DNA from: Bacillota bacterium
GTDB taxonomy: Bacteria > Bacillota > Clostridia > Lachnospirales > CAG-274
Assembly (NCBI GenBank): GCA_017627115.1
Contig: JAGAHK010000026.1
Coordinates: 1 to 20,918 of the forward strand
DNA: 20,918 bases
Reading direction: 5' to 3'
Under the pieces are notes generated by a model. The model was not told where the DNA came from and searched no databases. It worked only from the letters and a program-made list of their open reading frames with translations. This document shows, one piece after another, positions 8,019 through 15,402 of this stretch. A program made the position numbers and the translations under genes. Each line of letters begins with the position of its first letter. The stretch's first letter is position 1.

Positions 8019-10412
8019 TTAGTTATTTGCTGCTGTCAGCGCCGTTACAGCCGAGGTCACAGTGCCCGAAGCAAGCTTTGTGCCGCCGCTTATCGTGCCG
8101 CCTGTGCCGTAGCCGTTCTCGTCAAGAGTGCCCGTGTAAGTGCCGCCCGAATACAATGTGTATGCAGTGCCGCTTGTTATGCTGTCGGAGCCGAGGATAA
8201 CGGCTGAGGTATTTACCTTGACTTTAAGTGCGGCAGCCACATTGCCGTTTGCATCCGCAAGTGTAAGGAGAGTGCCTGCCGCTACAGATGTACCGCCCGT
8301 GCTGCCCTGTCCGGGTCTGCTCATACCGCCGAAGCCGCCGCCGGGTCCGCCCATACTCATACCGTTAATGCCGTATGTGACTGCATAGCCCTTGCCGCCC
8401 GTTGACGGTGATTCCGCCATGCCCGAGCTGCCGACTGCGAACAATACGCCGCCGTTGTAGTAAAGCTGTGCATTGTCGCCGAAGTCCACTGCCGTGTCGC
8501 CGTCGCTTGTGGGGCCGTTTACAATGACCGTACCGCCGTTTATTACGAGATCGCCGTTTGAGTCTACGCCGTCACCCATAGCCAACGAGTTCTCGCAGTA
8601 GATATAGCCGCCGTTTATTTCAAGGTAACCCGTTGAGCCCGTGTTGGGACCAAAACGGTTCTGATCCGTTGAAGTCGTATCATTGCCGCCTGCCGCGTTG
8701 ATATTATCGTCACTTGAATAAATGCTCATTTCTCCGCCGTTGATGTAGATATACCAACCCTCGACACCCTCGTAGCTTTTAAGCACTCTGATCTTGCTGC
8801 CGTCATTTATTTTAAGCGTGCCGTCGGCATGGATGCCGTCATCACCGCTCGATACCGTTATATCGGCTGCGTTTATAGTCATATCACCGTCTGTATGTAT
8901 GCTGTCATCCGTAGACTCAACAACTATCGTGCCGCCGTCAAGCACAGTTGAGGTACCCGATTTAAGACCCTTTGCGGAAATATCGTCCGCTGTGTTGATC
9001 GTGCCTGTTGTGGTTATGTTCAATGTCGGAGTACCGCTTATAACAAGGTCAGTCTCTGCCTGTATACCGTCACAGTAAGCTTTTACGGTGATATCGCCGC
9101 CGCTTATCGTCACCGAACCGACTTTTGCAAATATACCGTCATAGTTATAAGCCGAATCATATGTGCCGCTTGGAAGTACCGTAACATTCACAGTGCCGCC
9201 GCTTATCACTATATTGCCTGCCTTTGCGCCTATGCCTTTATCGGCTGCGTTTATCGTAAGGCTGCCGTCAAGTATATTTACATCGCCCTTTGTACACTGT
9301 ATGCCGTTGCCCTTTTGGGATGTAAGGTCAAGTGTACCGCTTTCCACTGTCACACTGTCCTTTGCCTTTATTGCGTTGTCAACGGAATTTACCGTAAGTG
9401 TAAGGTTCTTTACTTCCACCTCGTCCTTGCCCGAAATGCCGTTTGCATAATTGCCGTTTATGATAAGTTCGCCCTTGCCTTTAAGGCTTATGCCGTCATG
9501 TGAGAATATGCAGCCGTCGGGTTCGTCGGTTGTCGTTACCGTGCCGTCATCCGCAGTTTCTGTTTCAAATACCGCAGGCGTACCGTCGGAGAGGGTGTTT
9601 GTCGTACCCTTCTTTGCACTCAGCTTTATATCGCCGCTTATGCCGTATATGGCAGGACCCGAGCTGTTTGTTATACTCACGCCGTTAAAATTGATCTCTG
9701 CATTGTTGTCGGTATAGCTTTCGTCAATATTGACTACAAGCTGACCGTTTGTAAGTGTGCCCGAGAAATTGTATGTACCGGGGCTTAAAACGGTTATCAA
9801 ATTTGTGCTGTTATCCACCGTTATGTATTGGCTTGCGTTTTCTGCGCCCGAAACCGTGCTTGCGCCGTCCGCAAGAACAATGTCAAGCTCTATGGCTGCC
9901 GCTTCTTCCGTGCTGCCGCTTTCCGCCGCTGTCGTGCTTTCCGATGCGCCGCCCTGTGCCGACTGTGTTGTTGTCTCCGAAGTGCTTTCTTCAACCGTTG
10001 TCGGCAGTTCACCCGAGCCGCCCTCGACCTTGAACTTAAAGGCGCCGTCAAGCACTTTCTGCATTATAAAGACCGAATCAGCCGCCGTAATGCTCTTGTC
10101 GCCGTCAACATCAACAACTGTGAGATATTCGTCCGTTTTGTCCTCTATCTCCATTTTGTAGGCGCTGTTAAGCGTTTTCTGCAATACAGCCGCCGCATCA
10201 TCCGCCTGCACTTTTCCGTCACCGTTTGCATCACCGTAAATAAAATCCGCCGCCGAAGCCTTTGTGCTTGCTTCAAACATAACCGCCGATGCCGAGATGA
10301 CTGTGTCTTCCGTTATCTCCGCAGTTTCCTCCGCCGCAGTCGGCACCGTCACGGAACCGAAAACCATTGCAGCCACAGCCGCAATACTTATTAGTCTGCT
10401 GTACTTTTTCAT
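8019..10412 (-). CDS. Secreted beta-helix carbohydrate-binding-type protein with N-terminal dockerin
   Basis: 797 residues from the ATG at 10412, which has AAGGAG 9 nt upstream; an in-frame TTG at 10421 abuts that site and is rejected. Residues 1-28 are a signal peptide. A type I dockerin lies at about 59-128 (GDANGDGKVQADDA and DVDGDKSITAADS loops). A Ser/Thr-rich linker follows to about 172. The rest is rich in parallel beta-helix repeats (DGIHADGTLKINDGS, DSIHTDGDMTINA, DGIQAETDLVISG) matching the Cthe_2159-type carbohydrate-binding family (DUF4353), a pectin-lyase-like fold reported to bind polygalacturonate, cellulose and calcium. A Gly-rich stretch (GGPGGGFGG) lies near 685-705. No hydrolase motif is seen. 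Likely role: binding plant polysaccharide, perhaps pectin, on a cellulosome. The dockerin right after the signal is less usual than a C-terminal one. Confidence 0.88.
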   Translation of the reverse strand: MKKYSRLISIAAVAAMVFGSVTVPTAAEETAEITEDTVISASAVMFEASTKASAADFIYGDANGDGKVQADDAAAVLQKTLNSAYKMEIEDKTDEYLTVVDVDGDKSITAADSVFIMQKVLDGAFKFKVEGGSGELPTTVEESTSETTTQSAQGGASESTTAAESGSTEEAAAIELDIVLADGASTVSGAENASQYITVDNSTNLITVLSPGTYNFSGTLTNGQLVVNIDESYTDNNAEINFNGVSITNSSGPAIYGISGDIKLSAKKGTTNTLSDGTPAVFETETADDGTVTTTDEPDGCIFSHDGISLKGKGELIINGNYANGISGKDEVEVKNLTLTVNSVDNAIKAKDSVTVESGTLDLTSQKGNGIQCTKGDVNILDGSLTINAADKGIGAKAGNIVISGGTVNVTVLPSGTYDSAYNYDGIFAKVGSVTISGGDITVKAYCDGIQAETDLVISGTPTLNITTTGTINTADDISAKGLKSGTSTVLDGGTIVVESTDDSIHTDGDMTINAADITVSSGDDGIHADGTLKINDGSKIRVLKSYEGVEGWYIYINGGEMSIYSSDDNINAAGGNDTTSTDQNRFGPNTGSTGYLEINGGYIYCENSLAMGDGVDSNGDLVINGGTVIVNGPTSDGDTAVDFGDNAQLYYNGGVLFAVGSSGMAESPSTGGKGYAVTYGINGMSMGGPGGGFGGMSRPGQGSTGGTSVAAGTLLTLADANGNVAAALKVKVNTSAVILGSDSITSGTAYTLYSGGTYTGTLDENGYGTGGTISGGTKLASGTVTSAVTALTAANN

Positions 10413-10465
10413 TTTGCCCAACTCCTTGATATATTAAAACTGTTATTTTTGTTTTGTTGGGTCTT

Positions 10466-10546: not shown

Positions 10547-10793
10547 AAAAGGGGCTGTCGCATTAAAAATTATCTTGAAAATTAGCGATTAAGCCCCTTT
10601 TAACAGTTTTATTAACATTATCAGCGCCGCAGGCTTTAATCCGCAGTGCGGGCTTTGCCCGTGCGAGGAGCGGACAAAGTCCGCAAACCTTACAGACTTG
10701 CAAGTGTATCTTTGATGCACGCAGACAAGTCTGCCAATTGGCGAAAAACCTGTTTTTCGCCAGAGGGTGGAGCTTAATGCGACACCCTCCTTT
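10547..10793. mobile_element. MITE-like insertion between the beta-helix gene and upp
   Basis: Imperfect inverted repeats bound a noncoding block of about 247 bp: 10547-10566 (AAAAGGGGCTGTCGCATTAA) and 10774-10793 in reverse, identical over the inner TGTCGCATTAA and at most outer positions. A third related end occurs inside: 10592-10601 is the exact reverse complement of 10547-10556 (AAAAGGGGCT), forming a hairpin with TCGC/GCGA inside it. Other hairpins are 10740-10761 (10-bp stem, CT loop) and 10763-10789 (GAGGGTG/CACCCTC). No transposase is encoded, so any mobility would need one elsewhere. The right end touches the upp stop codon. No clear target duplication is seen. It resembles a non-autonomous transposon remnant; the family was not identified. 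Confidence 0.55.
10624..10733 (+). repeat. Structured intergenic element, copy A
   Basis: Ordered blocks shared with copy B (15141-15315): block 1 at 10624-10646 (21 of 23 bases shared, containing CTTTAATCCGCAG); CGAGGAGC at 10664-10671; TACAG at 10691-10695; and the 24-nt block at 10701-10724 (23 of 24 shared, beginning CAAGTGTATCTTTGATGC). Between them are hairpins with their own sequences: CGGGC-TTT-GCCCG, GCGGAC-AAA-GTCCGC (10670-10684), and CAGACTTG/CAAGTCTG (10693-10700 with 10726-10733) enclosing the 24-nt block as its loop. It may be transcribed by readthrough from upp on the minus strand or be a DNA-level repeat; direction is not settled. Function unknown. Confidence 0.7.
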
Positions 10794-14375: not shown

Positions 14376-15134
14376 ATGGCAGAGATAAAACTTGAAAATC
14401 TTATTGCAGAGCGCAAAAACAAAAAGATATACAGAGACGGAAACTACAAAATAAAGGTATTTGACAGCGAATTCTCAAAATCCGATATACTTAACGAAGC
14501 CTTAAATCAGGCGCGTGTCGAGGAAACGGGTCTGAGCATACCCGCACTTGAAGAAGTGCGCAAAATAGACGGCAAATGGGCTATAATAACCGATTTTGTG
14601 GAGGGCAGGACCCTTGCCGAGATAATGGCGGAGGACAGGGCGAACCTCGGACGCTATATGGAAAAATTTGTAGATATACAGATGGAGATACACAGCAAGC
14701 GCGCGCCCCTGCTCAACAAGCTCAAAGACAAGATGAACCGTAAAATAAGCGAGACCACCCTGAGCGCAACAACGCGCTATGAGCTGCACACGCGCCTTGA
14801 GGGTATGCCAAAGCACAATAAGGTATGCCACGGCGATTTTAACCCGAGCAATGTTATAATCTCACCCGAGGGCAATTATTACGTTATAGACTGGTCGCAC
14901 GCAACGCAGGGCAACGCAAGCGCAGATGCCGCAAGGACTTATCTGCTTTTCAGCCTTGCAGGCGATACCGAAGCTGCGGAGATGTACCTTGATATGTTCT
15001 GCCGCAAAAGCGACACCGCAAAACAGTATGTGCAGGCATGGATGCCCATAGTTGCCGCTTCACAAAGCGTAAAAGGCAACGAAGAAGAACGTGAGTTCCT
15101 GCTTAAATGGGCGGATGTTGTGGATTATGAGTAA
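14376..15134 (+). CDS. Aminoglycoside-phosphotransferase-fold kinase, substrate unknown
   Basis: 252 residues from the ATG at 14376, which has AAGGGG upstream; the GTG at 14367 lies inside that site. The fold is that of the APH/choline kinase group: N-lobe with IYRDGNYKIKVF (Lys near 25-27 as likely ATP-binding residue), hinge WAIITDFVEGRTL (68-80), catalytic loop CHGDFNPSN (151-159), and IDWSHA (171-176) with the metal-binding Asp. All catalytic residues are present, unlike the CotS-like protein at 6957. The sequence resembles the TIGR02172-type paralogous family of unknown substrate. It lies 14 bp after adhE with no terminator between, so it should be cotranscribed and under the same redox control. 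There is no evidence that it confers drug resistance. Confidence 0.85.
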   Translation: MAEIKLENLIAERKNKKIYRDGNYKIKVFDSEFSKSDILNEALNQARVEETGLSIPALEEVRKIDGKWAIITDFVEGRTLAEIMAEDRANLGRYMEKFVDIQMEIHSKRAPLLNKLKDKMNRKISETTLSATTRYELHTRLEGMPKHNKVCHGDFNPSNVIISPEGNYYVIDWSHATQGNASADAARTYLLFSLAGDTEAAEMYLDMFCRKSDTAKQYVQAWMPIVAASQSVKGNEEEREFLLKWADVVDYE

Positions 15135-15140
15135 TTCAAA

Positions 15141-15315
15141 GCGTCGCAGACTTTAATCCGCAGGTTGTTTGCGCCGCTGCAAGCGGCACAAATCCCGAAG
15201 GGACGGCGCGAACAATTCTGTTCGCTGCCGCTATACCGCGTTTTCACCGAGGAGCAAAACTTGCTTTTGCTACAGATATTCGGGCAAGTGTATCTTTGAT
15301 GCGCGCAGCCCGAAT
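15141..15315 (+). repeat. Structured intergenic element, copy B
   Basis: Same ordered blocks as copy A: 15141-15163, CGAGGAGC at 15248-15255, TACAG at 15271-15275, and the 24-nt block at 15285-15308. The 24-nt block is again a hairpin loop, here closed by ATTCGGG/CCCGAAT (15278-15284 with 15309-15315), unrelated to the stem of copy A. The hairpin after CGAGG is AGCAAAA/TTTTGCT (15253-15271). Between blocks 1 and 2, copy B has a longer arm: a 12-bp stem 15165-15176 with 15204-15215 (one G-U) enclosing TCCC-GAA-GGGA, then GAACA/TGTTC. It begins 7 bp after the phosphotransferase stop, so it would be in the 3' part of the adhE operon transcript, sense strand. Confidence 0.7.
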
Positions 15316-15320
15316 GCAAT

Positions 15321-15371
15321 TTGACAGCAAACATTAGTTTTCTGTCAAGGCTGTCAACTTTATCGACAGCC
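15321..15371 (+). other. Overlapping alternative hairpins
   Basis: TTGACAG (15321-15327) can pair with CTGTCAA at 15342-15348 or with the identical CTGTCAA at 15351-15357. GGCTGTC (15349-15355) can instead pair with GACAGCC (15365-15371). The second and third pairings exclude each other. It joins copy B to the bidirectional terminator. Confidence 0.55.
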
Positions 15372-15402
15372 AAAAAAAACCGCGTTATTCACGCGGTTTT
15401 TT
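15372..15402. terminator. Bidirectional terminator between the adhE operon and rpsU-yqeY
   Basis: Eight A, then CCGCGT (15380-15385), loop TATTC, ACGCGG (15391-15396), then six T. It works on both strands and serves the two convergent transcripts. Confidence 0.92.

Follow-up and report, generated by a model that had tools for sequence, protein, structure and literature searches.

Insertion sequences (ISs) of the IS1182 family, to which IS1272 belongs, as well as TnSha1, have an IS1182-family transposase and are described as targeting hairpins, often terminators, which are selected by structure and not by sequence (PMC5678879, PMC4923244). The hairpin is reportedly deleted or replaced by IS1272 and TnSha1, blunt partial deletions are reported for hairpin targets (PMC4923244) and no duplication is reported; duplication of the whole stem-loop by IS1272 is drawn as one possibility, pathway b (PMC5678879). 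No demonstration of whole-hairpin duplication by a transposon was found in the literature searched. A second set of related systems comprises short, non-coding, foldable repeats with IS-like ends that are dispersed between genes, such as RUP, ERIC, Correia/NEMIS, BOX and SPRITE, and some small bacterial repeats or miniature elements (MITEs) affect mRNAs (PMC2229807, PMC10969869). The accessible text of these two sources describes neither hairpin-length terminator duplications nor the core reported here. Long target duplications, of 16–28 bp in one group, are given for the IS1202 family (PMC10132070), and REP elements are likewise dispersed intergenic hairpins.

The elements presented below share hairpin targets with IS1272 and TnSha1, a short, non-coding, dispersed and foldable make-up and IS-like ends with the small repeats, long target duplications with the IS1202 family and dispersed intergenic hairpins with REP elements. 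In contrast to IS1272 and TnSha1, they contain no genes, carry a conserved folded core and, in one of their two forms (type B), duplicate the whole hairpin. No description matching them was found in the literature searched, a search whose coverage left out preprints and most subscription journals.

Results

Two miniature elements in the window and their relatives in the genome

The window is a stretch of 20,918 nucleotides from a Bacillota bacterium (assembly GCA_017627115.1, contig JAGAHK010000026.1), in which a first-pass annotation had noticed two copies of an intergenic element, A and B, sharing four blocks in the same order. Re-measurement gave the same positions and identities: a 23-nt block starting at 10624 in copy A and 15141 in copy B (21/23 identical), CGAGGAGC at 10664 and 15248, TACAG at 10691 and 15271, and a 24-nt block at 10701 and 15285 (23/24 identical). 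The stems that change while remaining complementary were also recovered as written there, in the sequence and folds of both copies. Other parts of that description had to be revised. The extents given were too small, the two copies spanning approximately the coordinates listed in Table 1, and the 24-nt block, taken for a loop, forms a hairpin of its own (GTGTATC TTT GATGCRC) that includes an internal loop, CAA/GCAG. As this inner hairpin is altered in six relatives, what stays constant is that internal loop together with its closing pairs. The sequence between the blocks had been called unrelated; in copy B, part of it is a nested hairpin insert of ~70 bp, missing from uninterrupted relatives.

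Table 1. Coordinates of copies A and B and of their parts within the window.
Feature	Position	Strand	Basis and remarks
Copy A, type-A miniature element	10551..10789	+	Ends located; imperfect terminal inverted repeats 10551-10566 and 10774-10789
Copy A 5' terminal hairpin, with A-tract before it	10551..10597	+	Fold
Conserved 5' core domain, copy A	10624..10669	+	Alignment A6 and pair counts
Hairpin H2, copy A	10670..10684	+	Fold, covariation
P3, copy A	10693..10733	+	Fold, covariation; contains 24-nt block 10701-10724
Hairpin H4, copy A	10738..10762	+	Fold, covariation
Copy B, type-B right end TCGACAGCC	15130..15371	+	Sequence, aligned flanks
Copy B conserved 5' block	15141..15164	+	Sequence comparison
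Nested hairpin insert, REP-like, splitting H1 of copy B	15165..15234	+	Uninterrupted relatives without it
P3, copy B, around 24-nt block 15285-15308	15278..15315	+	Fold, covariation
Hairpin H4, copy B	15320..15348	+	Sequence, covariation
Copy B 3' terminal hairpin, type-B end	15349..15371	+	Sequence, aligned flanks
Terminator-like hairpin immediately 3' of copy B	15380..15396	+	Sequence

The element is two-copy within the window only, since the genome holds many more. The 18 bases that open the 24-nt block, CAAGTGTATCTTTGATGC, gave 34 matches with 0–3 mismatches (29 exact) in the genome to which the window belongs, versus none for the reversed control, and the 5' block gave 45 matches versus none for its controls, so that the shared blocks are not due to chance. 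Several copies lie at contig ends of this 457-contig assembly, and the real copy number may therefore exceed 34.

At its left end copy B is trimmed to AGTAATTC and adjoins the upstream gene at its stop codon. Both here (15120-15140) and at another locus (L070) this stop codon (GAG TAA) falls on the left boundary of the core element (AGTAAYT). The 800-aa frame adjoining copy A (8019-10421, - strand) had no NCBIfam match. Nested inserts of ~60–70 bp (TTTGNGN..CAAATCCCGTAGGGA plus a hairpin), as in copy B, were also seen at nine other loci, twice at one of them. They interrupt either hairpins of the element itself or its 5' block, where a few bases of the target are missing, and their stems vary among copies yet remain complementary. 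These inserts look similar to REP elements, which have a GTAG head.

One core with two types of ends

Aligned flanks of many copies revealed a single core joined to different ends. Type-B elements start with CAGACTGTCRAAAAA and finish with TCGACAGCC or TCGACACGC, while type-A elements start with GGGGCTGTCGCATTAA and finish with an imperfect inverse of that start. The elements are ~0.25 kb long, non-coding and without a transposase gene: element plus one hairpin measures 260–272 bp at six loci, and type-A elements measure 236–383 bp at six loci, sizes within the limit for MITEs (no transposase gene, less than about 600 bp). By a simple pattern rule for type-B ends, 45 of 111 flanked cores had both ends, 32 had one and 34 had neither, this last group including type-A elements, copies without recognised ends (as L030 and L070) and a few false hits.

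Departures from these two forms were also observed. Four loci, in G004 and other genomes, retain the 5' domain, but their 3' half differs strongly and terminates in TCGAAAAAGTCC..GGACTTTTTCGA, which resembles the IS1182-type end CAGACTGTCGAAAAAGTCC found at locus L158. At one locus of G000 (contig C161), a solitary type-B-like end is joined to another end that resembles one of IS200/IS605 type, and to an inverted type-A end.

Many type-B elements lie between two copies of a local hairpin

Type-B copies often sit between two copies of the same local terminator-like hairpin. Such a duplication was found in 52 of 110 flanked cores and in none of 1499 control pairs, in which the left flank of one locus was paired with the right flank of another; the 110 are the unique cores with both flanks as returned by the searches, a non-random set that contains some related loci and a small number of false hits. 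Direct repeats scoring at least 14 flanked 55 of the 110 cores, and 52 of these 55 fold, whereas repeats of that score occurred in 7 of the 1499 mismatched pairs and none of them folds. The duplication is 18–44 bp long, with both copies identical in 30 of the 52 pairs. In the remaining 58 flanked cores, both window copies among them, no hairpin duplication was detected; at the copy B locus, no left duplicate of the terminator-like hairpin was seen and the best direct repeat is 7 bp. At two loci (L194 and L204) the right hairpin copy looks inverted with respect to the left one, with its loop flipped, and such copies may record hairpin or cruciform intermediates.

Empty sites were searched with the joined flanks of three type-B loci (L112, L117 and L103) in seven genomes of one genus. 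The L112 site is continuous in the sister species G027 and G062, and the L117 site in G027, in each case with a single hairpin and no element, so insertion is documented by an empty site at two of the three loci. None was found for L103 in the seven genomes, nor for L110 or the type-A loci. In another species, G063, the L117 site is occupied by an element that has these ends but lacks the core, and that is likewise placed between two hairpins. This coreless element (on contig C127), whose interior also looks REP-like, occupies the very terminator that bears the core element in G062.

Whole-hairpin duplication by type-B elements is thus well supported. The target is a hairpin, as for IS1272, and it is duplicated, in contrast to the replacement without duplication described for that IS. 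The directions of neighbouring genes, assigned at 61 loci by a simple open-frame rule, were convergent in 22, -/- in 21, +/+ in 13, divergent in 4 and undecided in 1. The scarcity of divergent neighbours fits a terminator location, and the lack of a fixed direction fits a palindromic target.

An origin from IS1202-family elements with unusually long target duplications is extremely improbable. The 16–28 bp of one group (PMC10132070) overlap the lengths found here, but our duplications extend to 44 bp and vary with the length of the hairpin, and the element ends match IS1182-type ISs. Furthermore, with NF033594 as the stand-in profile for one family of IS1202-type transposases, none of six congeneric genomes, all from this genus only, had a match above the cut-off, and a single weak match was obtained. 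REP elements were also considered for the main element and rejected, as its IS1182-type ends and target duplications do not fit them.

IS1182-type insertion sequences share the ends

The IS1182 transposase profile NF033551 matched in 26 of the 48 genomes of the taxonomic family, and in 7 of the 48 above its cut-off. At locus L157, an IS1182-type IS of 1511 bp, which contains a 475-aa frame, is bounded by type-B-like ends (CAGTCTGTCAATAAA / TTTTTTGACAGACTG), and one and the same hairpin flanks both this IS and an adjoining core element, giving three hairpin copies in total. Of the IS1182-type loci, 14 were examined. Seven (L157, L158, L160, L164, L165, L183 and L184) start with CAG[AT]CTGTC and border on a hairpin-like flank; L163 has an end of this kind without such a flank, and the other six have no such end. 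These six include the two loci in the genome that contains the window, where neither type-A nor type-B ends were found. Both ends are also present on the IS at L183, flanked by two different hairpins, so that both ends together with a duplicated hairpin were seen on an IS at L157 only. For type A, the shared end is represented by one transposase fragment of IS1182 type in the congener G002, whose start lies immediately within a type-A end.

The presence of IS1182 genes does not correlate with that of the element: they occur in 16 of the 31 genomes with covariance-model matches (see below) and in 10 of the 17 without. Lost or diverged transposases, broken assemblies, or another partner in some lineages could explain the missing correlation.

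Type-A elements probably replace their target

Type-A elements, copy A included, probably replace the target terminator hairpin. Right flanks of three type-A loci were matched to gene ends in four relatives each, and inspection by eye revealed a terminator-like hairpin at 9 of these 12 gene ends, near the site of the element in G000. For copy A, the gene-end hairpin was present in two of the four relatives (L280 and L286) and absent from the others (L271 and L288). Replacement is proposed with modest confidence, since the left flanks of the type-A loci map elsewhere in those relatives, without synteny.

The core is conserved across genera and covaries

The 5' core domain consists, in order, of a GCGYCGCAGRC mini-hairpin, ATCCGCAG, H1 (10646-10664 in copy A) and CGAGGA. 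Further downstream, P3 has a variable outer stem that encloses the CAA/GCAG internal loop and the inner hairpin. A pattern of the 5' domain was found in 30 of the 48 family genomes, with no control matches, and in 4 of 344 genomes sampled from the rest of the order. One of these, G304, has 28 copies, with a perfect hairpin duplication at one locus (L304) and a repeat that folds in part at another (L307). A covariance model, built from seven type-B copies given a structure and used to align the rest, matched in 31 of the 48 genomes and in 10 of 11 genera, with up to 65 candidates scored per genome. A public genome collection yielded 18 stretches with an exact 19-base match, of which 15, from Bacillota/Eubacteriaceae records, display the element, and three, from other phyla, have the 19 bases alone. 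Copy A had no match in plasmid and phage collections; among viral contigs, the 18-base block was absent and the 5' block was present in one (L156).

Covariation was assessed in a plain MAFFT alignment (A6, 45 of 48 distinct sequences) and in an alignment of 28 sequences fitted to the structure (A7), both made of related, non-independent sequences, over which these counts and the G.T counts below are taken. In A6, two-sided changes were seen in 10 of 13 pairs, with 97 such cells versus 36 ± 5 after shuffling; the count of pair types was less striking, being reached by 25 of 500 shuffles, and the outer TCC/GGA helix showed no two-sided change. In A7, whose counts lean towards the structure given to the model that aligned it, two-sided changes affected 31 of 42 pairs (16 ± 2 shuffled), and the 170 two-sided cells (49 ± 7 shuffled) were reached by none of 500 shuffles. 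This covariation supports the fold, as in a structured RNA. With a separate MAFFT alignment, likewise plain, RNAalifold missed two variable stems, H2 and outer P3.

The first-pass annotation had put forward selection on the fold, in either a structured RNA or a mobile DNA recognised through its hairpins. Further copies turned up in this and related genomes and covariation grew with them, both of which strengthen the case for selection. Mobile DNA is borne out by the IS-type ends, empty sites and hairpin duplications. The hairpin that is recognised is the target; the element's own hairpins are at most candidates for such recognition.

Template-switch correction of quasi-palindromes could in principle produce stem covariation without selection; hairpins abound in the genome, and inverted-looking hairpin copies occur at L194 and L204. 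We consider it very unlikely, as the unpaired bases CGCAG, GCA/GA and CAA/GCAG hardly differ between genera although the stems vary, and as an excess of G.T on one strand is not predicted by it. Such an excess was observed: G.T cells outnumbered A.C cells on the + strand by 41 to 9, and by 86 to 7 in A7, where 16 of the 42 pairs contain some G.T; the cells are concentrated, 21 of the 41 falling in one pair and 60 of the 86 in three pairs. The + strand is thus probably the folded single strand; the folded core is real and probably strand-specific.

The core probably works in single-stranded form, with RNA as the likeliest candidate. The same G.T asymmetry would be expected if one DNA strand had to fold, and the core does sit within a mobile element, yet a role as folded single-stranded DNA in transposition or replication appears rather unlikely: the IS at L157 and the G063 element lack the core and inserted regardless, so transposition does not need it.

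Conservation in 10 of 11 genera, strong covariation, strand asymmetry and the occurrence of the core with different or no recognisable ends would also suit a host regulatory RNA (an sRNA or cis-element) with many paralogous copies, its mobility being incidental or past. Against this reading, which we regard as distinctly unlikely, stand the hairpin duplications, the empty sites, the IS-type ends and an orientation to neighbouring genes that is not fixed. In addition, the stretch preceding the core varies in length and sequence, and therefore a built-in promoter is not general. 

An Rfam scan of the window gave nothing at gathering score, the best sub-threshold matches being at the 3' end of copy B, and in a scan of 12 distant loci only two tRNAs passed, both outside the element. 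Group IIC introns also target terminators, and target duplication is not expected from them; they were discarded, as the Rfam scans show no intron family.

Discussion

Both copies are, in all likelihood, non-autonomous miniature elements that are mobilised by IS1182-type functions, target hairpins and carry a folded cargo. Transposases of the IS1182 family would act on them in trans, as the shared ends suggest, on a target that is a hairpin-forming sequence, usually terminator-like, beside a gene end. In type-B insertion, the two 3' ends of the element are probably linked to opposite strands, one at each foot of an extruded hairpin or cruciform, and gap filling would then duplicate the entire hairpin. 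Duplication length would in this way track hairpin length, and not a fixed stagger. Type B fits pathway b of PMC5678879. Type A would probably exchange the hairpin for the element, as described for IS1272. Both types carry a separate cargo, made up of a conserved 5' domain of ~50 nt and a variable multi-hairpin 3' domain, which folds, probably on the + strand, and is maintained by selection, most likely as RNA.

A broader reading, to which we give slightly less than even weight, is that of a previously undescribed structured RNA present in more than 30 species, swapped as cargo between different IS1182-type ends and spread by a transposition route that recognises its target solely as a DNA hairpin and duplicates the whole terminator. 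The core is a candidate for a new structured-RNA family, with covariation and a predicted strand. As for transposition, these genomes provide dozens of natural whole-hairpin duplications by a transposon, two of them with empty sites, and a choice of target by structure, not sequence, that is directly testable. If the proposed route is true, duplication of the whole terminator leaves both neighbouring genes their termination signal; terminator doubling would be a nearly harmless form of insertion, and may account for the high copy numbers of these elements.
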